Source of the DNA: Microvirga sp. Mcv34
GTDB taxonomy: Bacteria; Pseudomonadota; Alphaproteobacteria; Rhizobiales; Beijerinckiaceae
DNA length: 64,000 nt
Direction: 5' to 3'
Assembly: GCF_024519725.1 (NCBI RefSeq)
Contig: NZ_JALJRK010000029.1
Coordinates: forward strand, 1-64,000
The notes beneath the pieces were generated by a model that was not told the origin of the DNA, searched no databases, and saw only the letters and a list, made by a program, of their open reading frames with translations. Below, one piece after another: positions 750-18,923 of this stretch (within the stretch, counting starts at the first letter, position 1; each line of letters opens with the position of its first letter). The translations under genes and the position numbers were made by a program.

Positions 750-1850
750 ATGATCAAGAACGTTGCGGTCGTCGGTTGTGGAATCGGCCGCACCCACATT
801 GTTTCCTATGCGGCTCATCCGGACAAGTTCCGCGTGGTCGCCATCTGCGATCTCAACGACGAGCGCCTGGCGAGCATCGGCGACGAGTTCGGCATCGCGC
901 GGCGGACCAAGGATTTCGGCGAAGTTCTCCGGATGGAGGATGTGGACATCGTCGATGTCTGCACGCCTCCGGCGGTCCATCTCGAACAGATCCTGGCGGC
1001 GCTCGCCGCAGGCAAGAACGTGGTCTGCGAGAAGCCGCTCGTCGGCTCCGTGGCGGACGTGGACAAGGTGATCGCAGCCGAGAAGCAGTCCAAGGGCCGT
1101 GTGCTGCCGATCTTCCAGTACCGCTATGGCAACGGCATCATGAAGGCCAAGCACATCATCGACCAGGGCATCGCCGGCAAGCCCTACCTCGCTTCCGTCG
1201 AGGTGTTCTGGAAGCGCACCGCGAAGTACTACGACAATCCCTGGCGCGGGCGTTGGGAAACCGAGCTCGGCGGCGTTCTCGTCACCCATGCGATTCACCT
1301 GCACGACCTTCTCACCTTCATCATGGGCCCGGTGAAATCCGTGTTCGCCCGCGCGGCGACGCGCGTGAACGACATCGAGGTGGAGGATTGCGTCGTCGGC
1401 AGCCTGGAGATGCAGAACGGCGCCCTCGCCTCCACGGCGGCGACGCTCGGCTCGCAGGATGAGATCAGCCGCCTGCGCTTCTGCTTCGAGAACGTGACCT
1501 TCGAGAGCAGCCAGAAGCCCTATGCGCCCGGCGACGATCCCTGGAAGATCATCCCCGCATCGCCCGAGGTTCAGGCGAAAATCGATCAGGCCTTCGAGGG
1601 ATGGACCTTCGTTCCGACGCGCTTCGAGGGATTGTTCGCCCCTTATCACGAGGCGCTCGTCACGGGTGGCGCGCTTCCCATCACCCTGGCCGATGCGCGC
1701 CGCTCGCTGGAGCTGCTGACGGCGTTCTATCAATCCATCGAGACCGAGCGTCCGCAGAGCTTGCACGTCGGTCCCGACCATCCGCGCTATGCGAACTGGA
1801 GCCTTGCGAACAAAGGCGCCGACATCCTGCGCTACGCGGCCCGGGCTTGA
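750..1850 (+). CDS. Gfo/Idh/MocA family oxidoreductase
   Basis: A 366-residue NAD(P)-dependent sugar/polyol dehydrogenase of the Gfo/Idh/MocA family. The N-terminal Rossmann motif GCGIG is at residues 9-13 and the family EKP motif is at 94-96. The C-terminal half carries the substrate-domain pattern, including THAIHLHDL. I chose the ATG at 750 over an in-frame ATG at 720 because AAGGGAG lies about 13 bases before it and the Rossmann strand then begins at residue 4. It sits between the ABC ATPase (divergent) and udh (convergent). Family members oxidise a sugar or cyclitol hydroxyl; the exact substrate cannot be read from sequence. It is one of four full Gfo/Idh/MocA genes in the first 14 kb. 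Confidence 0.92.
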   Translation: MIKNVAVVGCGIGRTHIVSYAAHPDKFRVVAICDLNDERLASIGDEFGIARRTKDFGEVLRMEDVDIVDVCTPPAVHLEQILAALAAGKNVVCEKPLVGSVADVDKVIAAEKQSKGRVLPIFQYRYGNGIMKAKHIIDQGIAGKPYLASVEVFWKRTAKYYDNPWRGRWETELGGVLVTHAIHLHDLLTFIMGPVKSVFARAATRVNDIEVEDCVVGSLEMQNGALASTAATLGSQDEISRLRFCFENVTFESSQKPYAPGDDPWKIIPASPEVQAKIDQAFEGWTFVPTRFEGLFAPYHEALVTGGALPITLADARRSLELLTAFYQSIETERPQSLHVGPDHPRYANWSLANKGADILRYAARA

Positions 1851-3743: not shown

Positions 3744-4774
3744 CAGCGGGCCCCCTGCCCGGCTGGCGCCGCTTCCGCCAGAGCCTGCGCCTCGAGGGTC
3801 AGCTCCATGGCCTTGAAGCAGTGCTCCTGGCCCATGGCCGTCTCGGTCCGATCGCGCACGTCGTTGAGAAGATTCCGCCCATAGGGCAGGTCTTCACCGG
3901 AGCAGTCGAGATGGCGCGTGCCGGTCCTGTCCACGAGGAAGAGGTGATCCTTGCCCTCGCGCCCGGCGATGTCGATGTATTTGCGCATCTCGATATAGCC
4001 GTCCGTCCCGACGACCATGACGCGCCCGTCGCCCCAGATCGGCAGGCCGTCCGGGGTGAACCAGTCCACGCGGATATAGCCGGTGGCGTCATTCGACCGG
4101 AGCGTCATCTCGCCGAAATCCTGCAGGCCCGGTGTCCGAGGATTGTTGCGGTTGGCTACCATCGCGTAGGTGACTTCCGCGTCCTTCGCGCCCGTATAGA
4201 ACAGGAACTGCTCGCATTGATGGGACGCGATGTCAGTCAGGATGCCGCCATAGGCCTCCCTCTCGAAGAACCAGGACGGGCGGCTTGGCGCATTGAGCCG
4301 GTGCGGGCCGAGGCCAAGGGTGTTCACCACCTTGCCGATCGCCCCATCGCGGATCAGTTCGCCGGCCTTGTCGGTGACGCGGCTGTTGAAGTGCTCCGAG
4401 TAGAAGATCGAATAGATGCGCCCCGTCTCCTGCTGGACCCGGCGCACTTCGGCCAGTTCCTCGAGCGTGACCATGCCGGGCTTGTCGACCATGTAGTCCT
4501 TGCCGCGACGCATGACCTCGATGCCGATCCGCGCGCGATCCTTCGGGATCGCGGCGCTCAGCACGAGGGCGATGCCGTCGTCCTCCAGGATGCGGCGGGC
4601 GTCGTGAACGCGCTCCGCCTGCGGATAGCGCTCCGCGAAGGACGCCGCGAGGTCGTCCTCTCGTGCGAAGAAGGACACGAACGTGGCCCCAGCGCCGAGA
4701 AGGGCATCAACCTGGCCGAAAATGTGGTTGTGGTTGATGCCGATCACGGAAAAGCGAATACCGGATGATGACAT
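3743..4774 (-). CDS. Gfo/Idh/MocA family oxidoreductase (divergent)
   Basis: A 343-residue member of the Gfo/Idh/MocA family. The glycine-rich loop is unusual: IGINHNHIFGQ (about residues 11-21) replaces GxGxxG, and VDKPG replaces the common EKP. The C-terminal half keeps SHQCEQFLFYTGA, in the place of the family's catalytic His block. It may bind NAD differently or act on an unusual substrate; a purely structural role is less likely given its position between importer and lactonase. It starts 10 bases after the permease stop and overlaps the lactonase start, so it is an integral operon member. Confidence 0.88.
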   Translation of the reverse strand: MSSSGIRFSVIGINHNHIFGQVDALLGAGATFVSFFAREDDLAASFAERYPQAERVHDARRILEDDGIALVLSAAIPKDRARIGIEVMRRGKDYMVDKPGMVTLEELAEVRRVQQETGRIYSIFYSEHFNSRVTDKAGELIRDGAIGKVVNTLGLGPHRLNAPSRPSWFFEREAYGGILTDIASHQCEQFLFYTGAKDAEVTYAMVANRNNPRTPGLQDFGEMTLRSNDATGYIRVDWFTPDGLPIWGDGRVMVVGTDGYIEMRKYIDIAGREGKDHLFLVDRTGTRHLDCSGEDLPYGRNLLNDVRDRTETAMGQEHCFKAMELTLEAQALAEAAPAGQGAR

Positions 4775-4784
4775 TCGCTCGATC

Positions 4785-5645
4785 CTAACCCTTGAGACCC
4801 GTGGTCGCGATGCCTTCGATCAGCAGACGCTGGAAGATCCCGAAGAACAGCAGGACCGGGATCAGGGCGACCACCGACATGGCGAACAGGGCGCTCCAGT
4901 CGGACTTGCCCGTCGAATCCACGAAGGTGCGCAGGCCGAGCTGGACCGTGTACTGGCTCGCGTCGTTCAGGTAGATCAGCGGGCCGAAGAAGTCGTCCCA
5001 GGTCCAGATGAAGGTGAAGATCGCCGCCGTGGCCAGGGCCGGCACCGACAGGGGCAGCATGACGCTCCAGAAGATGCGCCAGGGGCCGGCTCCATCGATG
5101 ATCGCCGCTTCGTCGAGCTCGCGCGGGATGCCGCGGAAGAACTGGTAGAGCAGGAAGATGAAGAAGGCGTCCGCGGCTAGGAACTTCGGCACCACCAGCG
5201 GCAGGAAGGTGTTCACCCAGTCGAGGTTCAGGAACAGCACGTATTGCGGGATCAGGGTCACGTGGTATGGCAGCATCAGCGTGCCGAGCATGAGGGCGAA
5301 CCAGAAATTCTTCAGCGGGAACTTCAGGCGCGCGAAGGCATAGGCCGCCAGCGAGCAGGAGATCACGTTGCCGATCACGCTCAGCACCGCGATCACCAGC
5401 GAGTTCCAGAAGAAGGTTCCGAAGCTCACCGTCAGGCCGCTCCAACCGCGGATATACGCGTCGATGGTGAAGCTGTCCGGCCACAGCGAGGCGTTGCCGA
5501 AGATCTCGTCGTCGGGCTTGAAGCTGCTCGCGAGCATCCAGAGCAGCGGATAGAGCATGACCAGAGACACGGCGCACAGGATCACATGGTACAGAAGCGA
5601 GCGGGCGCCGCCGACATTCTGCGTCGTTGCTGCAGCATCAGTCAT
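4785..5645 (-). CDS. Carbohydrate ABC transporter permease (MalG type)
   Basis: A 286-residue inner-membrane permease with six hydrophobic segments. The EAA loop (DEAAIIDGAGPWRIF, near residue 180) contacts the ATPase. The MalG-type N-terminus has one transmembrane helix, and a periplasmic loop follows. The gene overlaps the upstream permease by 8 bases, which is typical of paired MalF/MalG genes. It would import a sugar, uronate or oligosaccharide delivered by the binding protein at 6667-7947. Confidence 0.95.
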   Translation of the reverse strand: MTDAAATTQNVGGARSLLYHVILCAVSLVMLYPLLWMLASSFKPDDEIFGNASLWPDSFTIDAYIRGWSGLTVSFGTFFWNSLVIAVLSVIGNVISCSLAAYAFARLKFPLKNFWFALMLGTLMLPYHVTLIPQYVLFLNLDWVNTFLPLVVPKFLAADAFFIFLLYQFFRGIPRELDEAAIIDGAGPWRIFWSVMLPLSVPALATAAIFTFIWTWDDFFGPLIYLNDASQYTVQLGLRTFVDSTGKSDWSALFAMSVVALIPVLLFFGIFQRLLIEGIATTGLKG

Positions 5646-6579
5646 TGTAATGGACCCAGTAGCGAGAGGTGAGGAACGAGAAGGCGGTGAAGCTGGCGAT
5701 GATGATCAGCAGGATCCATGCCAGAGCTGACGCGTATCCCATGCGGAAATAGGCGAAGCCTTCCTGATACAGGTACAGGGTGTAGAAAAGGGTCGAGTCG
5801 ATCGGACCGCCGGTGCCTTCGCTGATGATGAAGGCCGGCGTGAAGGCCTTGAAGGCGTCGATGGTCTGCACGATGCCGTTGAAGAACACCACCGGCGTGA
5901 GCAGCGGCAGGGTGATCTTGAAGAATTGCTGCACCTTGTTCGCGCCGTCGATGTTCGCGGCCTCGTACACGTCCGGCGGGATCTGGCGCAGGCCGGCGAG
6001 GAAGATGATCATCGGCGAGCCGAACTGCCAGACGCTGAGCAGGACCAGGGTATAGAGCGAGTAGTTCGGATCGGAGATCCAACTCGGCCCCTCGATGCCG
6101 AAGAGGCCCAGAGCCACGTTGGCGAGGCCGTCCTTGGCGAAGAGCTGGCGCCAGAGCACCGCGATGGCGACGCTCGCGCCGAGCAGCGAGGGCAGATAGA
6201 AAAGAGCGCGGTACAGGGGCAGGCCGGCGATGCCGCGGTTGAGCACCATCGCGAGGCCGAGCGCGAAGGCGAGCTTCAGCGGCACCGCCATGACGACGTA
6301 GGTGAAGGTCACCTGCATGGAGTGCCAGAACTTCACGTCATTGGTGACGATGCGCTGGTAATTGGCCAATCCGATGAACTGCGGATCCTGCAGCAGGTCG
6401 AAATTGGTGAAGGACAGATAAAGGGATGCGAGCGTCGGGCCGAGGGTCAGCCCGAGAAAGCCGATGAGCCAGGGCGCGAGAAACGAATAGGAGACGAGCG
6501 TCCGGGACAAGCTTCCGCGGCGCCTGCTGCGCTTCTCCGGCTCGCTGATCGTCAAAGGGATTTGAGCAGTTGTTGTCAT
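5638..6579 (-). CDS. Carbohydrate ABC transporter permease (MalF/UgpA type)
   Basis: A 313-residue inner-membrane permease. A basic cytoplasmic N-terminus (EKRSRRRGSLSR) is followed by six hydrophobic segments and the EAA motif (YEAANIDGANKVQQFF, near residue 210). It pairs with the downstream MalG-type permease. It follows the binding-protein gene after an 87-base gap that contains a strong hairpin. Confidence 0.95.
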   Translation of the reverse strand: MTTTAQIPLTISEPEKRSRRRGSLSRTLVSYSFLAPWLIGFLGLTLGPTLASLYLSFTNFDLLQDPQFIGLANYQRIVTNDVKFWHSMQVTFTYVVMAVPLKLAFALGLAMVLNRGIAGLPLYRALFYLPSLLGASVAIAVLWRQLFAKDGLANVALGLFGIEGPSWISDPNYSLYTLVLLSVWQFGSPMIIFLAGLRQIPPDVYEAANIDGANKVQQFFKITLPLLTPVVFFNGIVQTIDAFKAFTPAFIISEGTGGPIDSTLFYTLYLYQEGFAYFRMGYASALAWILLIIIASFTAFSFLTSRYWVHYND

Positions 6580-6615
6580 ACGGAATGGCTCACAGCAATG
6601 TCATGATAGACGGGC

Positions 6616-6644
6616 AGGCCGACCCGGTTCGGCTGGGTCGGCCT
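6616..6644. other. Intergenic hairpin between binding-protein and permease genes
   Basis: Perfect 10-bp arms AGGCCGACCC / GGGTCGGCCT with a 9-base loop, directly after the binding-protein stop. There is no T-run, so it is more likely an mRNA-stabilising or attenuating stem. Such stems let binding proteins be made in excess over permeases in ABC operons (known principle; inferred here). Confidence 0.65.
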
Positions 6645-6666
6645 GGTGAGTCAGAAGGCGGTCGCG

Positions 6667-7947
6667 TCAGGCGCGGCTCAGAATGGCCTGGGCTTCGCTG
6701 ACATACTGCTTACCGCCGTCGGCCGGAGACAGGCGCGCAAAGCCGACCTGCTCGGCAATGCGGCGCTGCATCGTCTGGATCTCACCGGCACCCTTCGGCG
6801 GAGCGGGCGGAATCGGCCCGACCTTGGGCGTGACGTGAGCGATGAAGCCCACCACGAGCTTGCCCATATCGTCGAGATCCGCCGAGACCGCATCGCGGAC
6901 CTTGGGTGAGGCGGGCACACCGCGCTCCACGCCGAGGACCTTCGCGCCGTCCACGTCCTCCACGGTGAAGTTGGCGAACTTCACCGCCTGTTCAGCCACT
7001 TTGGAGCGGGCATAGATGCTCCACATCATCGATGGCTTGAGATAATGGCCGGGGTTCGGGCCCGCGCCCTGTGGATACATGGTGATGCCGAGCGGGTTCT
7101 TGTTGAGAACTTGATAGCCGACATACTGGTTCGAGTGGTTGAACGCACAGGCCGCGCGGCCCTGGGTCAGCAGGTTCGTCTCGATGTTGTTCTTGTCGAG
7201 CGCTTGCAGGTCGGCCGGCGGGCAGGCCTTCGTCTCGCGCGCCTTGGCCCACATGGCGAACCAGTCGGTCGCATCCTGCTCGGTCAGGCCGAGCTTGCCG
7301 TCTTCCGTGTAGAGCGCCTTGCCGCGCTGGCGCAGCCAGTTCTCAAAGGCGGTCTCTTCGGAGCTTCCATCCGATGTTCCGAAATATTCACCGTTATGCG
7401 CCTTCGTGACGGCGGCAGCGAGTTCGAAGAACTTGTCCCAGGTCACGTCGATCGGCTCGGGCACGCCGGCCTTCTGGAAAGCGGCTTTGTTGTAGATCAG
7501 GGCATTCGAGTTATTGCCGATATTGATGCCGTAGAGCTTGCCGTCGACCTTGCAGCTGTCGAGGGAGGCCTTGTCGAAATCGCCGATGGTGAGCGACTTG
7601 CCCATGAACTCGTCGAGCGGCATCAGGGCGCCGCGACGCGCATATTCCGCGACGTACCGGTAATCCATCTGGATCAGATCGGGAGCGTTGCGGCCAGCCG
7701 CCTGGGTGGCGAGCCGGGGCCAGTAATCGCCCCAAGCCAGGGTCTCGCCGTCGATCTTCACGCCCGGGTTCCGCTCCTGATAGAGCGCGACCGCTTTCAA
7801 CGTGCGGTCGGCGCGCTCCTTGGAGCCCCACCAGTACAGGCGAATGCGCGCGTCCTGCGCGAAGGCCGGAAGGTTGCCCAGGGCGCTGAGGCCGGCGGAC
7901 CCGAGGGCCGCCTTCAGCAGAGTCCTACGATTAAGGTCATGTTTCAT
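6667..7947 (-). CDS. Carbohydrate ABC transporter substrate-binding protein (Tat-type signal)
   Basis: A 426-residue family-1 extracellular solute-binding protein. The N-terminus has NRRTLLK followed by a hydrophobic stretch and a PAFAQ cleavage region near residue 31, a twin-arginine export pattern. The mature part has the family's LYWWGSKERADRT start and GDYWPRLATQ block. The start at 7947 has GGAGATA as its ribosome site. It is the first gene of a leftward six-gene operon (importer, dehydrogenase, lactonase, Udh). The ligand is probably a sugar or uronic acid, judged only from the downstream enzymes. Confidence 0.93.
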   Translation of the reverse strand: MKHDLNRRTLLKAALGSAGLSALGNLPAFAQDARIRLYWWGSKERADRTLKAVALYQERNPGVKIDGETLAWGDYWPRLATQAAGRNAPDLIQMDYRYVAEYARRGALMPLDEFMGKSLTIGDFDKASLDSCKVDGKLYGINIGNNSNALIYNKAAFQKAGVPEPIDVTWDKFFELAAAVTKAHNGEYFGTSDGSSEETAFENWLRQRGKALYTEDGKLGLTEQDATDWFAMWAKARETKACPPADLQALDKNNIETNLLTQGRAACAFNHSNQYVGYQVLNKNPLGITMYPQGAGPNPGHYLKPSMMWSIYARSKVAEQAVKFANFTVEDVDGAKVLGVERGVPASPKVRDAVSADLDDMGKLVVGFIAHVTPKVGPIPPAPPKGAGEIQTMQRRIAEQVGFARLSPADGGKQYVSEAQAILSRA

Positions 7948-8124
7948 GTGGCGTATCTCCCTCTTGGGCGCCGCCTAGGCGGCCACCCGGACCTATTGGC
8001 TCTCACTGGGCGACTGTTCTTGTCTTTGGCCTGCGTCGCGCCGAGGTTTTGGCTCCTGGCTCCTCCGCTACGCTGGCGGTTTTCCTCATGTCGCCCTCCG
8101 ACATGAAGCTAAAATTTAGAACGG

Positions 8125-8260: not shown

Positions 8261-8309
8261 TAATCGCTCAATGAACCTCAAGAGCGAAGCAGCAGGAGAA
8301 CCCAAGAGA

Positions 8310-9560
8310 ATGGACCGCGCCAACAGGAAACGCATTGCCCTCATCGGCACAGGCCATCGCGGCACGAGCATGTGGGGCATCAACGTCGTCAAGGGTTACG
8401 GCGACTTCGTCGAGATCGTGGCCCTGTGCGACATCAACAGGCTTCGCGCCGAGCGCGCCCGGGGCTTCCTGGGGATCGATGCTCCCATCTACGCCGACGC
8501 CCAGGAGATGATCGCGACCGTCAAGCCGGATACGGTGATCATCTGCACACGGGATTCAAATCACGACGAGATGATCGTGCGGGCGCTCGAAGCCGGCGTG
8601 AACGTGATTACCGAGAAGCCGATGACGACGACGGCCGAGAAGGTGCGCCGCATCCTCGATGCCGAGAAGCGCACGGGCAAGCGTGTCGACGTAACCTTCA
8701 ATTACCGCTACGCCCCGACCGTTCGGAAGATCAAGGAGCTCCTGAACTCGGGCGTGATCGGCGACGTCACCTCCATCGATTTCCACTGGTTCCTCGACAA
8801 CAAGCACGGGGCCGACTATTTCCGGCGCTGGCACGCCGTCGAGGAGAATTCCGGCAGCCTGTTCGTGCACAAGAGCACGCACCATTTCGACCTGATGAAC
8901 TGGTACCTGGACGACGACCCGGAGGACGTGTTCGCCCTCGCGAGCCTGCGCAAATACGGCAAGGCCGGTCCCTTCCGGGGCGAGCGCTGCAAGACCTGCC
9001 CGCATGCCAGCTATTGCGACTACTACATGGACATCAGCCAGGATCCCTGGCTCGAAGCCCTCTATGAGGATCCCTCGCGCGAGGACGGCTATGTGCGCGA
9101 CGCCTGCGTGTTCCGCGAGGAGATCAACATCCCCGACACCATGTCGGCCATGATCCGCTACAAGAAGGGCGTGCAGGTCACCTATTCGGTGAACACCTAC
9201 ATGCCGATCGAGGGCCACTTCATCGCCTTCGACGGCACCAAGGGACGCATTCAGATGCGCCAGTTCGAGCGCCAGCCCTGGGAGACGCCGGAGCACGACG
9301 AGATCCTGCTGGTGCGGAATTTCGGCGGCGCGGAGACCATCAAGGTCCCGCATGAGCCGGGCGGGCATTTCGGCGGCGACCCGAAGCTGCAGGACATGCT
9401 CTTCAAGCCCGATACGCCGGATCCGCTGAACCAGCGCGCCGGCTCGCGCGCCGGCGCCATGTCGGTCCTGTGCGGCGTCGCGGCGCTCCAGAGCGCGAAG
9501 ACCGGCCAGAGGGTCAGCGTCTCGAAGCTGCTCGATCCGGCGCAGGCCATCGCGGCCTGA
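8310..9560 (+). CDS. Gfo/Idh/MocA family oxidoreductase with four-cysteine motif
   Basis: A 416-residue dehydrogenase-like protein. The Rossmann loop GTGHRG comes near the start, EKPMTT near residue 105, and THHFDLMNW is in the catalytic-His region. The middle carries an unusual cysteine set: C227, C230, C236 and C266 (Cx2Cx5Cx29C), which could bind Zn or an Fe-S cluster. I start at the ATG 8310, with AGGAG about 11 bases upstream; an ATG at 8271 has no ribosome site. The gene is the first of a probable pair with the Ldh2-type enzyme, and palindromes lie upstream. The substrate is unknown. Confidence 0.88.
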   Translation: MDRANRKRIALIGTGHRGTSMWGINVVKGYGDFVEIVALCDINRLRAERARGFLGIDAPIYADAQEMIATVKPDTVIICTRDSNHDEMIVRALEAGVNVITEKPMTTTAEKVRRILDAEKRTGKRVDVTFNYRYAPTVRKIKELLNSGVIGDVTSIDFHWFLDNKHGADYFRRWHAVEENSGSLFVHKSTHHFDLMNWYLDDDPEDVFALASLRKYGKAGPFRGERCKTCPHASYCDYYMDISQDPWLEALYEDPSREDGYVRDACVFREEINIPDTMSAMIRYKKGVQVTYSVNTYMPIEGHFIAFDGTKGRIQMRQFERQPWETPEHDEILLVRNFGGAETIKVPHEPGGHFGGDPKLQDMLFKPDTPDPLNQRAGSRAGAMSVLCGVAALQSAKTGQRVSVSKLLDPAQAIAA

Positions 9561-10824: not shown

Positions 10825-11691
10825 TCAGACGACCGTGCGGTGACGCTCGATGCAGGTGGCGAGCACCTCCTCCATCGGCCGTTTCCACCAATTGTTTTCC
10901 GAGAAGATCTCGACTTCCGAATAGCCCGCGAAACCGACCGCCTCGACCTCCTGACGGATGCCACGCAGGTCGATGACGCCGTCGCCCATCATGCCGCGGT
11001 CGAGCAGCAAATCCGTGGTGGGCACAAGCCAGTCGCAGACGTGATAGGCGAGCAGCCGATCCTGGCCCGTGCGCCGGATCTGCTCCTTCAGCTCCGGATC
11101 CCACCAGACGTGATACACGTCGACCGCGAGGCCGAGCATGCCCGTCCGCTCCGGATCGACCCGGTCACAGATGTCGAGCGCCTGGCGCATGGTGTTCACG
11201 CAGGCGCGATCCGCCGCATACATCGGGTGCAGCGGCTCGATGGCGAGCGGGAGTCCGGCCTGACGGGAATAGTCGAGCAGGGTCGCGATGCCATCGTCGA
11301 CCATGGCGCGGGCGGCCTCGATGTCCTTCGATACGGGAGAGCCCGGCCGCGAATATTGCGGCAGGCCGCCGACGACGAGCACGAGACAGGGCGCCCCGAG
11401 CGCGACGGCCTCGTCCACCGCGCGGCGGTTGTCGTCGGTGGCTTCCTGCAGGCGTGCCGCATCGGCCGGGAACATGCCGCCGCGGCAATAGCCGGAGAGT
11501 TCGAGCCCCGCGTCCTTCACGGCCGCCACGGCCCGGTTGAGGCCGACATGCGCCACCTGGTCGCGCCAGGGCGAGATCGCCTTGATGTCGGCTCTCGCGC
11601 AGGCCTCCGTGATGGCCACGAGATCGCCCTGCTTTCTCACCGTCGCGGTGTTGATCGACAGGGCGCGGTGATCGCCGGAAAAGTCACGCAT
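10825..11691 (-). CDS. Sugar phosphate isomerase/epimerase-like TIM-barrel protein
   Basis: A 288-residue xylose-isomerase-like TIM barrel (AP endonuclease 2 superfamily). Probable metal ligands are visible in order: Glu in LAIEPLHP, Asp in LAVDVYHVWWD, His in AYHVCDW and Glu in YSEVEIFS. Members isomerise or epimerise sugars and cyclitols, or catalyse eliminations on keto-sugars. It is the last gene of the seven-gene operon of module C and begins 3 bases after the DUF993 stop. Partnership with a Gfo/Idh/MocA dehydrogenase is typical of cyclitol and 3-keto-sugar pathways. Confidence 0.87.
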   Translation of the reverse strand: MRDFSGDHRALSINTATVRKQGDLVAITEACARADIKAISPWRDQVAHVGLNRAVAAVKDAGLELSGYCRGGMFPADAARLQEATDDNRRAVDEAVALGAPCLVLVVGGLPQYSRPGSPVSKDIEAARAMVDDGIATLLDYSRQAGLPLAIEPLHPMYAADRACVNTMRQALDICDRVDPERTGMLGLAVDVYHVWWDPELKEQIRRTGQDRLLAYHVCDWLVPTTDLLLDRGMMGDGVIDLRGIRQEVEAVGFAGYSEVEIFSENNWWKRPMEEVLATCIERHRTVV

Positions 11692-11694
11692 GCG

Positions 11695-12885
11695 TCACGC
11701 CTCCACGCCACGCGTGGCGAGGACTGCGCGCATGCGCTCCACCGCGAGGTCCGGATCCCGCAGCAGGCCGGCCTTGTCCGCCAGGCGGAAGAGCTCGGCC
11801 AGATGCAGGGTCGAGCGCGCGCTCTCCTGTCCACCCACCATGGTGAAGTGGTCCTGATGGCCGTTGAGATAGGCCATGAACACCACGCCGGTCTTGTAGA
11901 ACCGCGTCGGCGCCCGGAAGATGTGCCGGGAGAGCGGAACGGTCGGCGCGAGCGTCTCGTGGAACGCGTCGAGATTACCGGCCGCCAGGCTCACGAGAGC
12001 GGACGAAGCCGCTGGCGCGATAGCGTCGAAGATGCCGAGCAGCGCGTGCGAATAGCCCTGATCGTCGCCGGCAATCAGCTCGGCATAGTTGAAGTCGTCG
12101 CCCGTATACATCCGCACGCGCTCGTCGAGGCGGCGGCGCATGGCAATTTCCTTGTCCTTGTCGAGGAGCGAGATCTTGACTCCGTCAACCTTGGACGCGT
12201 TGTCGTTGATGATCGACACGGCCGTGTCCATGGCGGCATCGAGATCGCCCGTGCCCCAATAGCCCGCCAGCGCCGGATCGAACATGTCGCCGAGCCAGTG
12301 AATGATCACGGGCTCCTTCGCCTGGCCGAGGATCCGGTTGTAGACCTTGACGTAGTCGTCCGGCGACTTGGCGACGCGCGCGAGAGCCCGCGAGGCCATC
12401 AGAATGATGCGCCCGCCCACCGCCTCGATGGCGGCGAACTGCTCCTCGTAGGCGCGGATCACGTCGTCGATGCTGCGCGCCGCCTCGGGCGCGAGGTGGT
12501 CCGTGCCGGCGCCGGAGAACACCAGGGCATCGCCCCGCGCCTTGGCGGCGCCAACCGAACGGCGGATCAGTTCGAGAGAGGTCGGCCAGTCGAGGCCCAT
12601 ACCGCGTTGCGCGGTATCCATCGCCTCGGCGACGCCGAGACCGAGATCCCACAGGCGCTCGCGATAGGCGATGGTCTTGTCCCAGTCGATGGTGGCCTGC
12701 AGCCACGGATCCGCATCGGCGAGCGGATCGGCGACCACGTGGGCGGCCGAGAACGCGATGCGGTTCATCGGTCCGCTCGCCTTCTCGGGGAAGGATTTCG
12801 GCGCGGAGAGCTGATAAGACTCAAGGCTGCGATCCGTCTGCGGCAGGCGGATCGACAGGGCGCTGATGGACTCAGGCCGGTTCAT
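11695..12885 (-). CDS. DUF993 / dihydrodipicolinate-synthase-like protein
   Basis: A 396-residue protein that I recognise as DUF993, sometimes annotated as dihydrodipicolinate synthase family. It has an aldolase-like barrel with blocks [26 protein letters not shown] and [14 protein letters not shown]. Lys is present in [13 protein letters not shown], where a Schiff-base Lys could sit. It overlaps the upstream dehydrogenase by 14 bases. An in-frame ATG nearer [10 protein letters not shown] (about residue 40) would give a shorter protein and is a real alternative start. A keto-acid or keto-sugar aldolase/lyase role is inference only. Confidence 0.85.
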
Positions 12886-14059
12886 GCTGCTTCTCCTTCG
12901 CGGCGCCCACGTTCAGCGGCGGCACGTCGACCCAGCGGCGCTCGCGCCAGCTCTCGAGCGCGCATTCCACGAGCTGGACGCCCTTGGCGCCTTCCACCAG
13001 CGTGTACTTGTAGGGCGCATCCTCGACCACGTGGCGGACGAACATCTCCCACTGGGTCTTGAAGCCGTTGTCGTAGACCACGTTGTCGGGCACCGGCTGC
13101 CAGGTGTCGTAGAAGTCGATGGTCTGCTTCTGGTCCGGGTTCCAGACCGGGCGCGGCGTGGCCTGGCGCGGCTGGATCACGCAATCGGTGAGGCCGGCGA
13201 CGGCCGAGCCGTGCGTTCCGTCCACGTGGAACGTGACGAGATCGTCACGATAGACGCGGGTGCACCAGGACATGTTGATATGGGCGATCACGCCGCCGTC
13301 GAGCATGAACGTGGCGTAAGCCGAGTCGTCCGCGGTGGCCTGATAGGTCTTGCCCTTCTCGTCCACGCGCTCCGGAATATGCGTCGAGCCGATGCAGGAG
13401 ACCGAGCGCACCTCGCCGAAGAGGTTGTCGAGCACGTAGCGCCAGTGGCAGACCATGTCGAGGATCATGCCGCCGCCGTCCTCGGAACGGTAGTTCCAGG
13501 ACGGGCGCTGCGCCGGCTGGCCCCAATCGCCTTCGAACACCCAATAGCCGAACTCGCCGCGCACGGAGAGCATGCGGCCGAAGAAGCCGGAATCGCGCAG
13601 CATCTTCAGCTTCTGAAGACCCGGCAGGAACAGCTTGTCCTGCACGGTGCCGTTCTTCACGCCCTTCTCGCGGGCGAGGCGGACGATCTTCAGGGCCTCC
13701 GGCAGGTTCGTGGAAATCGGCTTCTCGCAATAGATGTGCTTGCCGGCATTGATCGCCTGCTCCAGCAGGGTCGGCCGCATCTGGGTCGTCGCCGCGTCGA
13801 AGAAGATTTCGTCGTTCGTATCCGCGATGGCTGCATCGAGATCAGTCGTCCAGCGGTCGATGCCGTAGGTCTTGGCCAACTCTTGGATCTTGTCCGCGTT
13901 GCGTCCGACCAGGATGGGATCGAGCTGCACCTTCGATCCGTCCGAGAGCGTCACGCCGCCCTGGGCGCGGATGGCCGCGACGGAACGGATGAGGTGCTGG
14001 TTCATGCCCATGCGGCCGGTGATGCCGTGCATCACGATGCCTAATCTGCGCTGTGCCAT
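12872..14059 (-). CDS. Gfo/Idh/MocA family oxidoreductase
   Basis: A 395-residue protein. The N-terminal nucleotide loop HGITGRMG (about residues 11-18) resembles DapB as much as classical Gfo proteins. EKPIST near residue 110 and the [14 protein letters not shown] block are family marks. It lies between the enolase-superfamily gene (27-base gap) and DUF993 (14-base overlap) in module C, so all three should act on the same compound. It would oxidise a hydroxyl of the imported substrate or its dehydrated product; the exact reaction is not known. Confidence 0.88.
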
Positions 14060-14086
14060 AATGAATGTCCCCTATCAAAGATGGTT

Positions 14087-15460
14087 TTAGGCGAGCGGAA
14101 TGAGACTGCTCCAGTCGGGTTCGGCGCCGCTGGCAAAGCCGGGAGCAGACAGGAGCGAAGCGGTCGGAAGCGAGCCGCGCTCGAAAGCGAGGCCGATCCG
14201 GTCGCCGCGCTTCCGGTAGAGATCGGGATGCGCGGCCAGAAAGCGCGCCGCCTCCGCAGCCTGTGCGGGGCCGAAGCCCTCGACGTAATGGTGCCCGTTG
14301 CGCTCGGCGTGGGTCAGGCCGAGCGTTGCGACGAGCGCGGTGTCCTGCTGGATGCCGAGCCCCGCCTGGCAGGTGAGATCCTCGGCGGAGACGAAGAACC
14401 GGGCTGGCTGCGCCTCGTTCAGAACCGACACGCGCACGGCGTTCAGCACGGACTTGTAGAACCCCTTGCAGGCTTTCGAGGACACGCCGCGATAGCCGAG
14501 CGCGACTGCGCGCGGGAAGGAATCGTAATCGCCATCCGCCTCGTCGATGATGAACGGGATCTCGCCGGCGAGATCATCCAGCGGCGCGGCGAAGGTGCCG
14601 GCCCGGTCGAAGGGCTGCTCGATATAGAGAAGGTGATCGCGGAACGCCCGCAGCGCGCCGCCGCTCAGGGCCTGGAGCAGAACCCGTAGGCGCGGCGGAT
14701 CGTACTGCTCGTTTGCATCGAGAGTGGCGCGGTAATCGGGGACGTGCCGCGACAGGAGATCGTGGATGGCCGCCAGACGCGCGATGTCCGCCTCGACATC
14801 GCCGCCGATCTTGATCTTGAAGAGCTTCAGGTTGGCGAGCCGAATCTCGTCCTCGAGCCCGCCGGCGCCGTCGAGGGAATCGAGCAGGCCGACCGTGTGC
14901 CGCAACTGCACGTCGCCGACCGGCCGGACGTCCGCCAGGAAGGACCGGATGCGCTCTTCCGCAAGATCCGGCGTCTGCCGTGCGTCGATGCCGAAGACGT
15001 TGCGGCGCAGGCCTTCGGCGAAGTCGAGCCTCAGCACGTTGAGGAGCGCATCGGCGACGGCCTTGTCGATGAGCGCGGGCCCGTAGGAGGCGACGAGGCC
15101 CGGCAGCCCGTGATCGGCGGCCCACATCTTCTGGGCCGAGAAGCCGCGCGCATGATGGCCGAAGGCCGTGTCCCAATCCTGAGATTGGGCGTAGTTCCCG
15201 GCGGCCTCATCAAGGCTCGCCTTCAGATCGGCGATCGTATCCTGCGGAGACTTGGCCGGGTTCTTGTCGAACCATTTCGGCATCATCATCTCGGCCGTAA
15301 CGCCCGTGGCGGTCCCGGCGCCCTCCACCTCGACCACGGCCCGCACGAAGGCCTGAGGCGCCTCGTCGACGGTCACGAGGCCGAACCGGAACGGCCGCGC
15401 GAAGCGCATGGGACGCTCGAAGGTCTGGATCTCAACAATGCGAAGCCGGGTGCCTGACAT
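14087..15460 (-). CDS. Enolase-superfamily (mandelate racemase/muconate lactonizing-like) protein
   Basis: 457 residues with enolase-superfamily marks in order. These are LFKIKIGGD (base Lys region), TLDANEQY (first metal Asp), YIEQPFDR (second metal Glu), FIIDEADGDY (third metal acid) and VSSKACKG (distal Lys). Superfamily members abstract a proton alpha to a carboxylate, giving racemisation or sugar-acid dehydration. At 457 residues it is longer than typical 370-400-residue members. Its start is 5 bases from the end of the ABC ATPase gene, and it is the first enzyme of module C. Substrate is likely an acid carried by the NMT1-type importer (inference). Confidence 0.82.
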   Translation of the reverse strand: MSGTRLRIVEIQTFERPMRFARPFRFGLVTVDEAPQAFVRAVVEVEGAGTATGVTAEMMMPKWFDKNPAKSPQDTIADLKASLDEAAGNYAQSQDWDTAFGHHARGFSAQKMWAADHGLPGLVASYGPALIDKAVADALLNVLRLDFAEGLRRNVFGIDARQTPDLAEERIRSFLADVRPVGDVQLRHTVGLLDSLDGAGGLEDEIRLANLKLFKIKIGGDVEADIARLAAIHDLLSRHVPDYRATLDANEQYDPPRLRVLLQALSGGALRAFRDHLLYIEQPFDRAGTFAAPLDDLAGEIPFIIDEADGDYDSFPRAVALGYRGVSSKACKGFYKSVLNAVRVSVLNEAQPARFFVSAEDLTCQAGLGIQQDTALVATLGLTHAERNGHHYVEGFGPAQAAEAARFLAAHPDLYRKRGDRIGLAFERGSLPTASLLSAPGFASGAEPDWSSLIPLA

Positions 15461-15465
15461 GGTCT

Positions 15466-16311
15466 TCAGTCCAAGTGGCCGCGGGCATAGAAGTGACCGC
15501 GGATCCTTTGCGTGAGCTCGATGAAGGTCGGATGCCCCATGACATCCAGGTTGCGCGGGCGCGGCAGCGTCACGTCATAGATGGCGGCGATCGCGCCTGG
15601 TCGCTCGGACATCACGACCACGCGGTCGGCCAGGAACACCGCCTCGGGGATCGAGTGGGTGATGAGCAGGATCGTCTTGCCGGTCTCGTGGTGGATGCGC
15701 TGCAGTTCGAGGTTCATGCGCTCGCGCGTCATGGCGTCGAGAGCGCCGAAGGGTTCGTCCATGAGCACGATCTTCGGATCATGCACCAGGGCCCGGCAGA
15801 TGGCGGCGCGCTGCTGCATGCCGCCGGAGAGCTGCCAGGGATACTTGTTCTGGAAATCCTCGAGCCCCGCCATGGACAGGAGCTTGCGGGCGCGGGTGAG
15901 ATGGCTCTCCCGATCGAGCCTGCGCACCTCCACGGGCATCATCACGTTGCGCAGCACCGAGCGCCAGGGCAGCAGCACCGGGCTCTGGAACACGATGCCG
16001 ACGTCGTCCGGCGGCTCGCGCACGGCGACGCCGCCGATCTGCACCTCGCCTTCGGTCGGCGGGATGAGGCCGGCCACGAGCTTCAGGAGCGTGGACTTGC
16101 CGCAGCCCGAGGGCCCGACCACGGCGACGAACTCGCCGTCGGTGATGTCGAGGTTGATCGGCCGCAGGGACGGAACATCGCCGCCCCGGGTGCGATAGGT
16201 TTTCGCGAGGTTGCGGATCTCGATCATGTTGCGAGGCGCGGACGCCTCGCTCTTCGGCTCATGGCTCGGTATGACACGAAGATGTGCCATGGCGTGCGCG
16301 GTCCTGCTCAC
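15466..16311 (-). CDS. ABC transporter ATP-binding protein (SsuB/TauB type)
   Basis: A 281-residue ATPase with Walker [10 protein letters not shown] near residue 65, the SGGMQQRAAICRA signature, Walker B VLMDEPFGALD and the H-loop LLITHSIPEA. It belongs to the nitrate/sulfonate/taurine family of importers. The GTG start at 16311 overlaps the binding-protein stop as GTGA. An internal ATG (MIEIRNLAKTY, about residue 29) would also give a full ATPase domain. It powers the permease at 17355 with the binding protein at 16308. Confidence 0.93.
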   Translation of the reverse strand: MSRTAHAMAHLRVIPSHEPKSEASAPRNMIEIRNLAKTYRTRGGDVPSLRPINLDITDGEFVAVVGPSGCGKSTLLKLVAGLIPPTEGEVQIGGVAVREPPDDVGIVFQSPVLLPWRSVLRNVMMPVEVRRLDRESHLTRARKLLSMAGLEDFQNKYPWQLSGGMQQRAAICRALVHDPKIVLMDEPFGALDAMTRERMNLELQRIHHETGKTILLITHSIPEAVFLADRVVVMSERPGAIAAIYDVTLPRPRNLDVMGHPTFIELTQRIRGHFYARGHLD

Positions 16312-17315
16312 TGCGTGGCCTTGGGCAGGAAGTCGCGGGTGTAGAACGCCTTGGGGTTCTCCTTCGCCGACGGGTCGAGACCGCCGTACTCGATGAGCAG
16401 GTTCACCGTCTCGGCCATGTTGGCGTCGGTGACGTTGAACGGGCGCTGGTTCTTCGTCTCTTCCGTGCGGTAGAGCGGGATCGTCAGCTCGAAACCTTCC
16501 TGCAGCGTGTCGGGCTTGCCCGCCTTCGGCAGGGCTTTCAGCACCGCCTGCGTGGCCTCGGCCGGGGCCTTCTCGGCGCCCTCGATGGCCTTGGTGGTCG
16601 CGCTCATGAAGCGGCGCACGAGATCGGCCTTGTCCTTCAACGTATCCTTGTGGGCGATGATGCCAGAGGACACGAGGTTGACGCCGTAATCCGCGAACAT
16701 GACCGGCGTGACGTCCTTGCCCGTCGCGTCCTTGATCTTCATGCTCTGGTCCATCACGTAGCCGAGCAGCACGTCGGCCTGACCGTTGATGACCGCGTTG
16801 AGCTTCGTCTGCGCGTCGCCGGAGACGATGCGCATCTCGCTTTCCTTGAGGCCCGCCTTCTTCAGGAAGAGCGGCCAGATCTGCGACATGGAATCGCCCG
16901 GTGTCGTCGCCACCGTCTTGCCGCGCAGGTCCTCGGCCTTGCGGATGTTCTTCTCGGAGAAGCCCATTGCCGACATCGGGTTCTTCTGCAGCAGGACGCC
17001 CGGAGACGTGACGGGCGCGCCCTTGACCGCTGCGCGGATCATGGTCGGAACGTCCGCATAGGCGAAGTCCACGGTCTTGGCGGCCACCGCCTGCACGGTG
17101 ACGGCCGATCCGCGCCCTTCCTGAATTTCGAGATCGATGCCTTCGGCGGCGTAAAGCCCCTTCTCCTTGCCGTAGAAGAACGGCGCGTGCTCGCCATAGA
17201 CATACCAGTTGAGCATCAGCACGACCTTGTCCGCGGCCTGCGCCGGCAGCGACACGAACGGCATGAGAGCGGTGGCGGCAAAAAGGGTGGCTTTCAGGAA
17301 CGTACGCTTCTTCAT
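16308..17315 (-). CDS. ABC transporter substrate-binding protein (NMT1/SsuA-like)
   Basis: A 335-residue periplasmic binding protein. The signal peptide is KKRTFLKATLF followed by a hydrophobic core and cleavage near PAQAAD (about residue 28). The mature part starts with LMLNWYVYGEHAPFFYGKEKGLY, the pattern of NMT1/THI5-like domains. Relatives bind sulfonates, aromatic acids, pyrimidine precursors or other small acids, so the ligand need not be a sugar. It is the second gene of the module C operon, 39 bases after the permease. Confidence 0.92.
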   Translation of the reverse strand: MKKRTFLKATLFAATALMPFVSLPAQAADKVVLMLNWYVYGEHAPFFYGKEKGLYAAEGIDLEIQEGRGSAVTVQAVAAKTVDFAYADVPTMIRAAVKGAPVTSPGVLLQKNPMSAMGFSEKNIRKAEDLRGKTVATTPGDSMSQIWPLFLKKAGLKESEMRIVSGDAQTKLNAVINGQADVLLGYVMDQSMKIKDATGKDVTPVMFADYGVNLVSSGIIAHKDTLKDKADLVRRFMSATTKAIEGAEKAPAEATQAVLKALPKAGKPDTLQEGFELTIPLYRTEETKNQRPFNVTDANMAETVNLLIEYGGLDPSAKENPKAFYTRDFLPKATQ

Positions 17316-17354
17316 GGACTTCCTCCGCTTGTGTTGTGGGCCCCGCCGTTATGG

Positions 17355-18161
17355 TCAGGCGGTTGCTGCAAAATCATGCCGCTGGCTGGCGTGCCACGGC
17401 ACGGTGAGACGTTCGATGAGATCGATGATCCAGAAGAGGATGACGCTGATCAGCGCCAGGATGACGAGAGCCGCGAACATGGTCGGCAGCTCGAAATTAC
17501 CGATGGAGCGCTGGAGCACGAAGCCGATGCCGGAATTGGCGCCGACGAATTCACCGACGACGGCGCCGACAACGGCGAGCGTGACGGAAACCTTCAGTCC
17601 CGCGAAGATCGCCGGCAGCGCGTACGGCAGGTTGACCATGGTGAAGGCTTGCAGGCGCGAAGCCTTCATGGAGCGCACGAGATCGCGCATCTCGGGATCA
17701 AGCGATTTGAAGCCCTGCACGCCGGCGACGACCACGGGAAAGAACCCGAGAAGAAACGCGGAAATCACCTTCGGGGCCATGCCGAATCCGAACCACACCA
17801 CGAAGAGCGGCGCCACCGCGACCTTCGGAATCGACTGCGAGAAGACGAGCAGCGGATAGACGTAGGATTCGACCGTCCGCGAGCCCGCGATAAGCATGGC
17901 GATCGGGATGCCGAACAGGGCCGAGAGGATGAACCCGCCGAGCGTGGCCGTTGTCGTGGGAATGGCCTCTCGGAGCAGCATGCCGCCCTCGTTCCAGAAG
18001 GCCACGGCCACGTCCTTTGGGGGCGGGATCAGATAGGCCGGGATCGCGAAGATCCGGACCGTGAGGTCCCAGAGCACGACCGTGAGAATGAGAAGCCCGA
18101 AAGGCTTGATCCAGGCGGAATTCAGCAGATTTTGACTGGCGCGCGCGAGCTTCGACGTCAT
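17355..18161 (-). CDS. ABC transporter permease (SsuC/TauC type)
   Basis: A 268-residue inner-membrane permease with about six hydrophobic segments and the SsuC/TauC coupling region (LDPEMRDLVRSMKASRLQ). It is the first gene of the leftward module C operon. A near-palindromic candidate operator lies 60-75 bases upstream (18223-18236). Confidence 0.94.
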   Translation of the reverse strand: MTSKLARASQNLLNSAWIKPFGLLILTVVLWDLTVRIFAIPAYLIPPPKDVAVAFWNEGGMLLREAIPTTTATLGGFILSALFGIPIAMLIAGSRTVESYVYPLLVFSQSIPKVAVAPLFVVWFGFGMAPKVISAFLLGFFPVVVAGVQGFKSLDPEMRDLVRSMKASRLQAFTMVNLPYALPAIFAGLKVSVTLAVVGAVVGEFVGANSGIGFVLQRSIGNFELPTMFAALVILALISVILFWIIDLIERLTVPWHASQRHDFAATA

Positions 18162-18222
18162 GCAGCGTCTTCCTCAAGGGCGTTTCCAAAGGGCATTTGC
18201 AGGCGGCTTCAGCCGCTCTATG

Positions 18223-18236
18223 TAACTATCTGGTTA
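18223..18236. promoter_or_regulatory. Near-palindrome TAACTA-TC-TGGTTA, candidate TetR operator
   Basis: A 14-base inverted repeat with one mismatch (TAACtA against TAACCA) in an AT-rich stretch before the module C operon. The form ACCA-N2-TGGT is that of RutR-like TetR operators. The TetR gene just upstream is the obvious candidate regulator (inference). Confidence 0.55.
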
Positions 18237-18281
18237 ATTAGATGCCCGGTTGTCGGACATGTCAAGCGCTCTTTGGAATTT

Positions 18282-18923
18282 TCAGGCGCGCACGCCCGCC
18301 AGGACGAAATCGACCACGTGGTCGATGCGCTCTTTCATGGCCGGCGGGGACAGAAGCTCGCGGCCGAAGGCCACGGACAGGGTGTAGACGTTCGACAGGT
18401 AGAAGTAGCAGAGCCCGGCAATGGAGACGTAAAGCTGCACCGGATCGATGCCGGGGCGAATGGTCTTGGCCTTTTCGCCCCGCTTGAGGATGACCCCGAT
18501 GGTCTCGATGACCGGGGAGTTCATGGTGTGCACCCGGGTGGATTGCTTCAGGTGCTTGGCGTGATGCTGGTTCTCCGCGTTGAGCAGCATCATGAACTCG
18601 GGATACTGAACGAAATAGTTCCACGTGAAACGCACGAGCTCCTCGAGCGCCTGCAAGGGCGACAGCTCCTCCAGATGCAGCTCGCGCTCAGCGGCGCGGA
18701 TATGGTCGTAGGCCGCTTCGAGGGTCGCGAGAAACAGCGCCTCCTTGCTCCCGTAATAATAGTAGAGCATGCGCTTGTTCGTGCGGGCCGCTTCCGCGAT
18801 CTGGTCCACCCGCGCCCCGCCATAGCCATGACCGGCGAACTCGGCCGTCGCCGCATCGAGGATCCGCCGCTTCGTCGCCTCGGCGTCTCGAACGGCTTGC
18901 TTGCTGACGGCGGGGACGTTCAT
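18282..18923 (-). CDS. TetR/AcrR family transcriptional regulator
   Basis: A 213-residue repressor-type protein. The N-terminal TetR helix-turn-helix spans about residues 18-65 (RRILDAATAEFAGHGYGGARV then IAEAARTNKRMLYYYYGSKEALF). The YYYYGSKE recognition segment and the C-terminal half resemble the RutR-like branch. It is transcribed in the same direction as module C and lies 120 bases upstream of the permease. It probably senses the imported compound and controls the operon at 18223-18236. Confidence 0.92.
   Translation of the reverse strand: MNVPAVSKQAVRDAEATKRRILDAATAEFAGHGYGGARVDQIAEAARTNKRMLYYYYGSKEALFLATLEAAYDHIRAAERELHLEELSPLQALEELVRFTWNYFVQYPEFMMLLNAENQHHAKHLKQSTRVHTMNSPVIETIGVILKRGEKAKTIRPGIDPVQLYVSIAGLCYFYLSNVYTLSVAFGRELLSPPAMKERIDHVVDFVLAGVRA

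Follow-up and report, generated by a model that had tools for sequence, protein, structure and literature searches.

What a bacterium takes up and degrades with a gene set that matches no described pathway is the question raised by a compact operon in the 64,000-nucleotide stretch of Microvirga DNA analysed here (the window). An earlier note on this DNA described seven co-directional genes with a TetR gene and an operator at their head. A check of the sequence and of Pfam domains confirmed all eight genes on the minus strand at the coordinates given in that note, in the order permease (PERM), binding protein (SBP), ATPase (ATP), enolase-like enzyme (ENO), Gfo/Idh/MocA dehydrogenase (GFO), DUF993 and TIM-barrel protein (TIM). 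The TetR and permease genes are separated by 120 bases, followed by spacings of 39 bases (permease-SBP), 5 bases (ATPase-ENO), 27 bases (ENO-GFO) and 3 bases (DUF993-TIM) and by overlaps of 4 bases (SBP/ATPase, where the ATPase start codon is uncertain) and 14 bases (GFO/DUF993).

The order PERM-SBP-ATP-ENO-GFO-DUF993-TIM is kept in 81 of 112 distinct mapped ENO loci, a count that leans to close relatives, mainly Bradyrhizobium, many of the loci being the best 80 ENO matches; a TetR homologue is present in 80 of these 81. The operon was found in Bradyrhizobium, Azospirillum, Microvirga and others, the eight-gene block being common among bacteria of soil and of plants, and two loci from outside the class of the window (L235, L245) carry the TetR gene and all seven genes arranged as in the window. 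The gene set thus recurs far beyond chance, and the conserved order bears out the proposal that the seven genes form one functional unit, a conclusion that is supported together with the presence of a local repressor gene.

Co-occurrence of ENO and DUF993, which had been suggested as a check, holds strongly in one direction. Among 297 genomes of the same order, DUF993 was found in 42 of 43 genomes with ENO versus 89 of 297 overall (Fisher p 6.6e-25, without correction for kinship); counted by hand at the genus level, the figures are 16/16 and 34/123. In a survey of the phylum, DUF993 occurs in 14 of 15 ENO genomes versus 36 of 398, although 11 of these 15 were already part of the order survey, and three of the four new ones hold DUF993. 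The lone exception in each survey (L051 and L246, respectively) encodes a DHDPS-family protein, k15, beside ENO. In the other direction, 47 of the 89 DUF993 genomes in the order survey lack ENO. On a quick tree of DUF993, linkage to ENO needs 10 changes, at least six of them forced by starred branches, and therefore does not go back to one inheritance event. GFO is encoded in 25 of the 63 fetched DUF993 loci without ENO nearby, in 24 cases together with TIM; the core therefore does not need ENO. In the remaining 38 loci a GFO of the window type is absent from the vicinity, and CoA-type genes are present in 29, so DUF993 may have more than one substrate. GFO-DUF993-TIM is a module, and ENO is one of several additions to it.

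The unit proposed earlier is real but was drawn too narrowly, since the system extends past the operon: a sugar importer and Gfo genes at 720-9557 join GFO-DUF993-TIM in some other genomes. A second transport unit of the CUT1 sugar ABC type (3749..7950, minus strand) comprises a binding protein (6673-7950), two permeases (5644-6579 and 4791-5645) and a Gfo protein (3749-4774), and its counterparts, not every member each time, are set beside GFO-DUF993-TIM in L045, L135, L171, L174, L177, L178, L182, L214 and L236. Two further Gfo proteins are encoded on the plus strand; one of 429 aa (8271..9560) accompanies GFO-DUF993-TIM in L045, L135, L177, L178, L182 and L236, and one of 376 aa (720..1847) occurs in 6 of the 25 GFO-type DUF993 loci without ENO nearby.

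The regulator gene (18282..18923, minus strand) encodes a RutR-like TetR-family protein with TetR_N and TetR_C_29 domains (Pfam TetR_C_29, 4e-41), which scores 68.5 bits against the NCBIfam RutR model, where 368 are needed. A promoter-like sequence read by eye at 18237..18265 (minus strand) consists of TTGACA (18265-18260), a 17-base spacer and TCTAAT (18242-18237); it is omitted by a consensus promoter scan, the rule of which excludes TCTAAT. The near-palindromic operator reported at the head of the operon was found at 18222..18237 (minus strand), where the operator-like site TTAACCAGATAGTTAC shares the final base of the -10-like hexamer. Scanning of the window for TTAACCNNNNNGTTAM with at most one mismatch returned this site as the sole match, with 0.05 expected. 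In the genome itself a related 15-base pattern occurs once exactly and once with one mismatch. One match was likewise obtained with the reversed control of the pattern, which puts the second site at the level of chance. Sequences within two mismatches of TTAACCANNTGGTTAA are present in 62 of 83 upstream regions and in none of the shuffles. The operator-like TTAACC-N4-GGTTAA site recurs in other genera, and TTGAC(A/C/G) is found ahead of it in loci of Azospirillum and in Microvirga sesbaniae as well. We infer that the operon is controlled by the TetR protein, which would bind TTAACC-N4-GGTTAA across the -10/+1 region as a repressor and would dissociate in response to the substrate or an intermediate.

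ENO (14087..15460, minus strand) matches Pfam MR_MLE_C at 7.1e-8 only. Its structure model (mean pLDDT 93.7) has the capping domain and modified TIM barrel of the enolase superfamily, and the best Foldseek matches are NSAR/OSBS, dipeptide epimerase, MLE and mandelate racemase (E about 1e-15), a comparison that does not reveal whether the enzyme is an epimerase, a dehydratase or a cycloisomerase. In 48 aligned sequences K214 and K216 (the KxK of strand 2), D247, E280 and D305 are invariant and align with 1jpm/3rit; K328, also invariant, aligns with the lysine of SLKLC in strand 6 of 1nu5, which we take to be catalytic. ENO thus shares with the MLE subgroup (3rit, 1jpm, 1nu5 and the NSAR/OSBS 5fjp from Foldseek) the barrel and capping fold, the KxK, the D/E/D metal ligands and the sixth-strand lysine. 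However, the 50 best Foldseek matches show 12-21% identity to ENO and, by query length, TM-scores of 0.54-0.62, ENO has 456 residues versus about 360, and it possesses conserved motifs of its own (PKWFDK, SSKxCKG and ERNGHH). ENO is an uncharacterised branch of the enolase superfamily with MLE-type residues, with which the proton abstraction proposed earlier is compatible.

DUF993 (11695..12885, minus strand; Pfam DUF993, 8.5e-193) was modelled with a moderate mean pLDDT of 78.8, and the model matches the solved relative 4dnh, which has no assigned function, with a TM-score of 0.90. Foldseek matches ranked 2-50 are DHDPS/NAL-type by name (E 1.1e-9 to 2.5e-8), and the model and 4dnh both point to the DHDPS-type TIM-barrel fold. 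Among domain models, PF06187 alone was found; the Pfam DHDPS model and NCBIfam gave no match. K236 and H195-W196 are invariant in 28 aligned sequences, and T260 begins a T-G-D-D stretch. A profile alignment, not significant alone (probability 1%, E 0.052), pairs K236 with K179 of k15, which in turn aligns with a lysine of NAL/DHDPS that presumably forms the Schiff base. The argument is built on the fold match. Compared with the class I aldolases DHDPS and N-acetylneuraminate lyase, DUF993 has the same fold and, by the k15 alignment, a similarly placed lysine and TG(D/N)D stretch, but it shares 12-16% identity with them and differs in its 395 residues and invariant His195-Trp196. The C-C cleavage step of the earlier note is consistent with this fold. 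Its view that no characterised pathway is known to use this gene set also stands for the literature searched, in which neither a paper naming DUF993 or PF06187 nor one retrieved by combined terms was found, and no characterised counterpart was identified.

GFO (12872..14059, minus strand; GFO_IDH_MocA_C3, 5.3e-24) contains E111-K112-P113, and its nearest solved chain is 3oqb, 'Oxidoreductase' (E 3.7e-229), followed by 4fb5 (1.6e-19). TIM (10825..11691, minus strand; AP_endonuc_2, 1.6e-33) is a protein of the ketose-epimerase type. Conserved residues in 23 aligned sequences are E151, D190, H193, H216, E258 and E260, among which the invariant E151, D190, H216 and E258/E260 correspond to the putative Glu-Asp-His-Glu site of the ketose epimerase/IolI type, assumed here to bind the metal. 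Its solved relatives are 3ju2 ('uncharacterized protein SMc04130', 9.3e-136), 3qc0 ('sugar isomerase') and 7vpf ('Xylose isomerase', 3e-97), with IolI (1i60, 5.8e-14) ranking after them. If the name of 7vpf rests on more than its family, it denotes a sugar and not an acid, which counts against an acid substrate.

By Pfam, the importer has the composition of SsuABC/TauABC/NMT1-type systems, namely an NMT1-type periplasmic binding protein (16308..17315; NMT1, 4.8e-45), one SsuC/TauC/SaoP-like permease (17355..18161; BPD_transp_1, 1.7e-28) and one TauB/SaoA-like ATPase (15466..16311; ABC_tran, 2.2e-32), all on the minus strand. The NCBIfam matches listed for a named substrate subfamily (sulfonate, taurine, nitrate, SaoX) all fall under their cut-offs: 103.9 bits for the permease against SaoP (295), 62.6 of 163.5 bits for the binding protein against SsuA_fam, and 25 of 186 bits for the best match of the ATPase. 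The importer type differs among relatives (NMT1, tricarboxylate or TTT, CUT1 and peptide type), TTT importers standing in for the NMT1 importer; the window contains a CUT1 as well as an NMT1 importer, a combination that points to no single substrate. The import of an acid, as suggested earlier, fits the MLE-type residues of ENO and the TTT importers of relatives, from which the acidity of the substrate is inferred.

In the best reading, to which we assign a probability of about 0.6, the operon encodes an undescribed pathway that takes up a small carboxylate and degrades it without phosphorylation, with C-C cleavage by DUF993 as the last step; the carboxylate is probably a sugar-type acid from plants or soil. 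The order of steps and every reaction are conjectural. The NMT1-type importer would take up the acid, and ENO, a metal-dependent enzyme in which both faces bear lysines (KxK and K328), would remove the carboxylate-adjacent proton and so epimerise or dehydrate the acid. GFO would oxidise a hydroxyl with NAD(P), TIM, as a metal-dependent enzyme, would isomerise a keto compound, and DUF993, with K236 as the likely Schiff-base lysine, would cleave a C-C bond to small products entering central metabolism. The compound is probably common around plants, since the operon occurs in several genera and ENO in 128 plasmid records, 92 of them from Rhizobium. Known non-phosphorylating sugar-acid pathways employ an enolase-superfamily dehydratase and then a DHDPS-type enzyme. 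The operon likewise combines members of these two superfamilies, but it has additional GFO and TIM steps, a DUF993 protein in place of DHDPS proper, and an ENO of the MLE type, as opposed to their His-Asp dehydratase type.

A broader proposal, which we advance tentatively, places DUF993 at a metabolic junction as a Schiff-base lyase that has so far gone unrecognised. Different upstream routes (ENO with GFO; only GFO, with importers for sugars or carboxylates; a set of CoA-transferase, acyl-CoA dehydrogenase and SDR) would supply it with one shared kind of intermediate, in many cases alongside TIM, and the window would contain the ENO version, with an enolase of a new reaction type. A narrower form of the best reading, possible but somewhat doubtful, takes the substrate as a plant saccharide with a uronic acid, the glycoside of which would be opened by several Gfo enzymes through keto chemistry, while ENO would act on the uronate at the C5 proton by epimerisation or 4,5-elimination. 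The CUT1 importer and further Gfo proteins of the window agree with this, as do an NAD-dependent epimerase-family protein with SSNHA, presumably the uronate-dehydrogenase motif, and an SMP-30-type lactonase, both encoded 7-9 kb past TIM. ENO also occurs with GH39, KduI/IolB-family and TIM proteins in Rhizobium loci, and heparinase II/III genes lie near ENO in two of three haloarchaeal records, in one together with sulfatases, the third having neither. However, the GH39 set was seen only in Rhizobium plasmids (L132, L140) and one genome of the window's order (L042). Among the other 200 mapped loci, a uronate-dehydrogenase-like gene turned up just twice (L080, L107) and no lactonase was present, an absence of low weight, given that just 2 of 94 TIM-holding ENO loci reach 9 kb past TIM.

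An inositol-like cyclitol route, in which GFO would be an IolG-like dehydrogenase, TIM an IolE/IolI-like enzyme and DUF993 the replacement of a later lyase, is unlikely. The myo-inositol (iol) pathway shares a Gfo dehydrogenase and an AP_endonuc_2 TIM barrel with the operon, IolG is the top NCBIfam match of GFO, IolI is among the solved relatives of TIM, and the Rhizobium loci hold the KduI/IolB-family protein; yet the NCBIfam matches lie far under the curated cut-offs (75.4 of 355 bits for IolG, 24.7 of 300 for IolO), Pfam finds neither a kinase nor IolD in the operon, and cyclitols offer ENO no carboxylate. Slightly less probable still is a nitrogen heterocycle or aromatic acid, with ENO as a muconate-type cycloisomerase, to which the NMT1/SsuA-type importer, the RutR-like regulator and the chloromuconate cycloisomerase residues matched by ENO would point; the folds of TIM, GFO and DUF993 are of sugar type, and CUT1 and TTT importers accompany the same TetR, GFO, DUF993 and TIM in relatives. 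A loose catabolic island in which ENO functions separately from DUF993 is very improbable, for although ENO and DUF993 are not neighbours in 13 of 44 loci, 12 of the 13 have DUF993 elsewhere in the genome and the other (L051) has k15 beside ENO, and the gene order is maintained across families and beyond the class.

If the carboxylate reading is true, the ENO branch, DUF993 and the TIM and GFO clades, all orphan groups at present, would gain one joint function, and the dependency between ENO and DUF993 puts a direct test within reach, for which one binding protein and four enzymes are enough. Three of the groups already have solved relatives with names that give no pathway (4dnh, 3ju2 and 3oqb). 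Two of these are Sinorhizobium meliloti proteins, SMc04130 (3ju2) for TIM and SMc04132 (4dnh) for DUF993, the entry names of which give no function; both presumably originate from structural genomics. The only paper found to name SMc04132 and SMc04133 (PMC12542648) tabulates both among regulated genes, SMc04133 as a 'putative oxidoreductase'.

The operon described here runs on the reverse strand (10825..18236), downstream of a TetR-family regulator gene, and is best read, with a probability of roughly 0.6, as an undescribed carboxylate-catabolic operon. From 18923 down to 10825 the genes encode the TetR protein, an ABC permease, an NMT1-type binding protein and an ATPase, followed by an enolase-superfamily protein (ENO, 14087-15460), a Gfo/Idh/MocA dehydrogenase (GFO), DUF993 and an AP_endonuc_2 TIM barrel (TIM); the seven genes after the regulator are separated by at most 39 bases, with two overlaps. 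The coordinates and gene assignments of the earlier note are correct. By family model the weakest assignment is that of ENO, whose MR_MLE_C match scores 32.9 bits where 29.4 are required.

Homologues of ENO were collected from 297 genomes of the host's order, GTDB contigs, plasmids and 398 genomes of the phylum, and genes in the mapped loci were called with a codon-usage scorer suited to high-GC DNA. In the GTDB-contig sample, the best 80 of 568 related stretches, the four ENO matches at 84-88% are all from Microvirga, in keeping with a Microvirga-like origin of the window. The plasmid search and the phylum survey yielded homologues in 128 records and 15 genomes, respectively. The order from permease to TIM is kept in 81 of 112 distinct mapped ENO loci, a set that leans toward close matches and is about half Bradyrhizobium (49 of 83 full-order loci, a figure predating the reduction of the double-counted pairs L032/L058 and L033/L063 to single loci for the 112-locus tally), and 80 of these 81 loci contain a TetR homologue. 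An eight-gene order identical to that of the window occurs in two genomes beyond the class (L235, L245). On Rhizobium plasmids (L132 4326-10380; L140), ENO is the last gene of an operon encoding a peptide-type ABC importer, a KduI/IolB-family protein, GH39, a TIM barrel and a 2-hydroxyacid dehydrogenase, and a similar set is found in one genome of the order (L042).

The predicted structure of ENO (pLDDT 93.7) has an enolase fold, and its top Foldseek matches, at 12-21% identity, are N-succinylamino-acid racemase/OSBS, dipeptide epimerases, muconate cycloisomerases and mandelate racemase. Residues K214, K216, D247, E280 and D305 line up with those of dipeptide epimerases; the counterpart of K328 is the lysine on strand 6 of chloromuconate cycloisomerase. 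All six are invariant across 48 aligned rows. On the basis of these residue matches, ENO is predicted to remove a proton adjacent to a carboxylate. Assignment of ENO to the DgcA family of dipeptide epimerases was rejected (21.5 bits, 400 required), as were GFO as IolG and TIM as IolO, by NCBIfam scores below cut-off. For the predicted structure of DUF993 the first match is 4dnh (TM 0.90), followed by proteins of the DHDPS/NAL type at E about 1e-9; the invariant K236 of DUF993 pairs, in a weak alignment, with a lysine of a DHDPS-family protein (k15), which in turn lines up with a NAL/DHDPS lysine that we take to be the Schiff-base lysine. GFO retains Glu-Lys-Pro, and TIM retains the conserved residues of the ketose-epimerase type, presumably the metal site. 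Solved relatives were deposited as 'uncharacterized protein' (4dnh), 'oxidoreductase' (3oqb), 'uncharacterized protein SMc04130' (3ju2), 'sugar isomerase' (3qc0) and 'xylose isomerase' (7vpf).

ENO depends on DUF993, and the reverse fails. The co-occurrence of the two families, proposed as a check in the earlier note, holds from the side of ENO, which is nearly always accompanied by DUF993, and breaks down from the other: of the 297 genomes in the order survey, 43 carry ENO and 89 carry DUF993; the two coincide in 42, leaving 1 with ENO alone and 47 with DUF993 alone. Weak ENO-like matches (E 1.1e-5 to 9.6e-4, in seven genomes without another match), the second piece of a broken ENO in G232 and a sub-cut-off DUF993 match in G216 were excluded before counting. 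By genus, in a hand count from two survey tables, DUF993 is present in 16 of 16 ENO genera versus 34 of 123 overall. The distance between ENO and DUF993 is at most 12 kb in 31 of 44 loci, and for 12 of the remaining 13 the genome has DUF993 at another place. Of the 15 ENO genomes in the phylum survey, 14 hold DUF993; 11 of the 15 are shared with the order survey, and among the four new ones three hold it. In both exceptions, G245 (L051) and G418 (L246), k15 adjoins ENO, and k15 or its SDR partner k14 was found in seven of the nine fetched ENO loci lacking DUF993 nearby. The alternative partner set, k14, k15 and the TIM barrel k12, was observed in L043 (2333-4463), L139 and L246.

Of 66 DUF993 places away from ENO in the order, 63 were mapped; the remainder are three fragments, two of them from G187 and one from G134, that enter the genome counts only. 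A window-type GFO is near DUF993 in 25 of the 63, together with TIM (24), a TetR homologue (22), a TTT carboxylate importer (14) or a CUT1 sugar importer (6); none of these 25 loci had a CoA-transferase or enoyl-CoA hydratase match. In the other 38, a TetR homologue is present in 8, and genes for CoA-transferase, acyl-CoA dehydrogenase or enoyl-CoA hydratase in 29. The same locus kinds occur on annotated plasmids, with glycerate kinase in four such records. On a quick DUF993 tree, with near-identical rows thinned and long rows flagged by the program, CoA-linked rows require only 4 changes versus a shuffled mean of 33.8, so the locus kinds form largely separate branches; ENO-linked rows require 10, at least 6 of them forced by starred branches, which indicates that ENO repeatedly joined or left GFO-type loci. 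The CoA-type clusters (L153 1-15826, L143, L144, L194, L204) differ in composition, each holding some of the following: GMC, ALDH, CoA-transferase, enoyl-CoA hydratase, glycerate kinase, acyl-CoA dehydrogenase, SDR, DUF993, TIM and ETF genes.

An operator-like site of the TTAACC-N4-GGTTAA type (18222-18237) precedes the permease gene and overlaps a promoter-like TTGACA-N17-TCTAAT, recognized by eye and outside the rule of the promoter scan. Sites with at most two mismatches to TTAACCANNTGGTTAA, a target picked after the window site was known, lie upstream of the permease gene in 62 of 83 loci and in none of the shuffles, which preserve base content only; the other 21 upstream regions have three or more mismatches. 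The site is a perfect palindrome, TTAACCAGCCGGTTAA, in Azospirillum and mostly TTATCCAACGGGTTAA in Bradyrhizobium. The strict palindrome (at most one mismatch) occurs once each in 64 of 201 loci, or 17 per Mb versus 1.3 in shuffles of the same kind; the window site, with two mismatches, falls outside this set. The host genome has one exact copy of its site, and a second with one mismatch is equalled by one control match. This recurrence upstream and the single exact copy point to a probable role of the TetR protein as a local repressor, acting at a putative operator.

The system extends past the seven-gene unit delimited in the earlier note, into 720-9557, where a CUT1 importer, an adjoining Gfo protein and Gfo proteins of 376 and 429 residues are encoded; this set, with varying members, recurs next to GFO-DUF993-TIM in L045, L135, L171, L174, L177, L178, L182, L214 and L236. 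The same stretch encodes two candidate further members of the system (1951-3746, reverse strand): an SMP-30-type lactonase and, next to it, a protein of the NAD-dependent epimerase family that carries an SSNHA motif and that we take to resemble uronate dehydrogenase. The two are perhaps an aldarate-forming pair. The uronate-dehydrogenase-like gene occurs in two further loci and a lactonase relative in none of the other mapped loci, most of which stop short of the expected places.

The leading rival, which we consider less likely, is a uronic-acid or glycoside source of the substrate. It is suggested by the neighbours of ENO relatives: in Rhizobium these are GH39 and KduI-type genes, and two of the three haloarchaeal records examined (L136, L137 and L138, ENO homologues of 34-35% identity) have heparinase II/III genes nearby. 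For the carboxylate-catabolic operon itself, the literature searched, with subscription journals mostly outside its coverage, did not name DUF993 or PF06187, and yielded no papers behind the 4DNH, 3OQB, 3JU2, 3QC0 and 7VPF structures and nothing informative on the operon for SMc04130-04138 and pRL100272-277; SMc04134 turns up in PMC11387232.

Two frames beside the operon, 19156-20466 and 9590-10729 (-), had no Pfam match, the true genes being 19197-20660 on the reverse strand and a forward-strand Ldh_2 gene (about 9590-10747) that was seen again, among mapped loci, solely in Microvirga (L052-L055). Another possible sugar-acid set is located at 19197-25691, with an FAD-linked oxidase and a DHDPS-family protein; inspection by eye adds a TctC-like binding protein, a regulator of the FCD type and an IlvD/Edd-like dehydratase.
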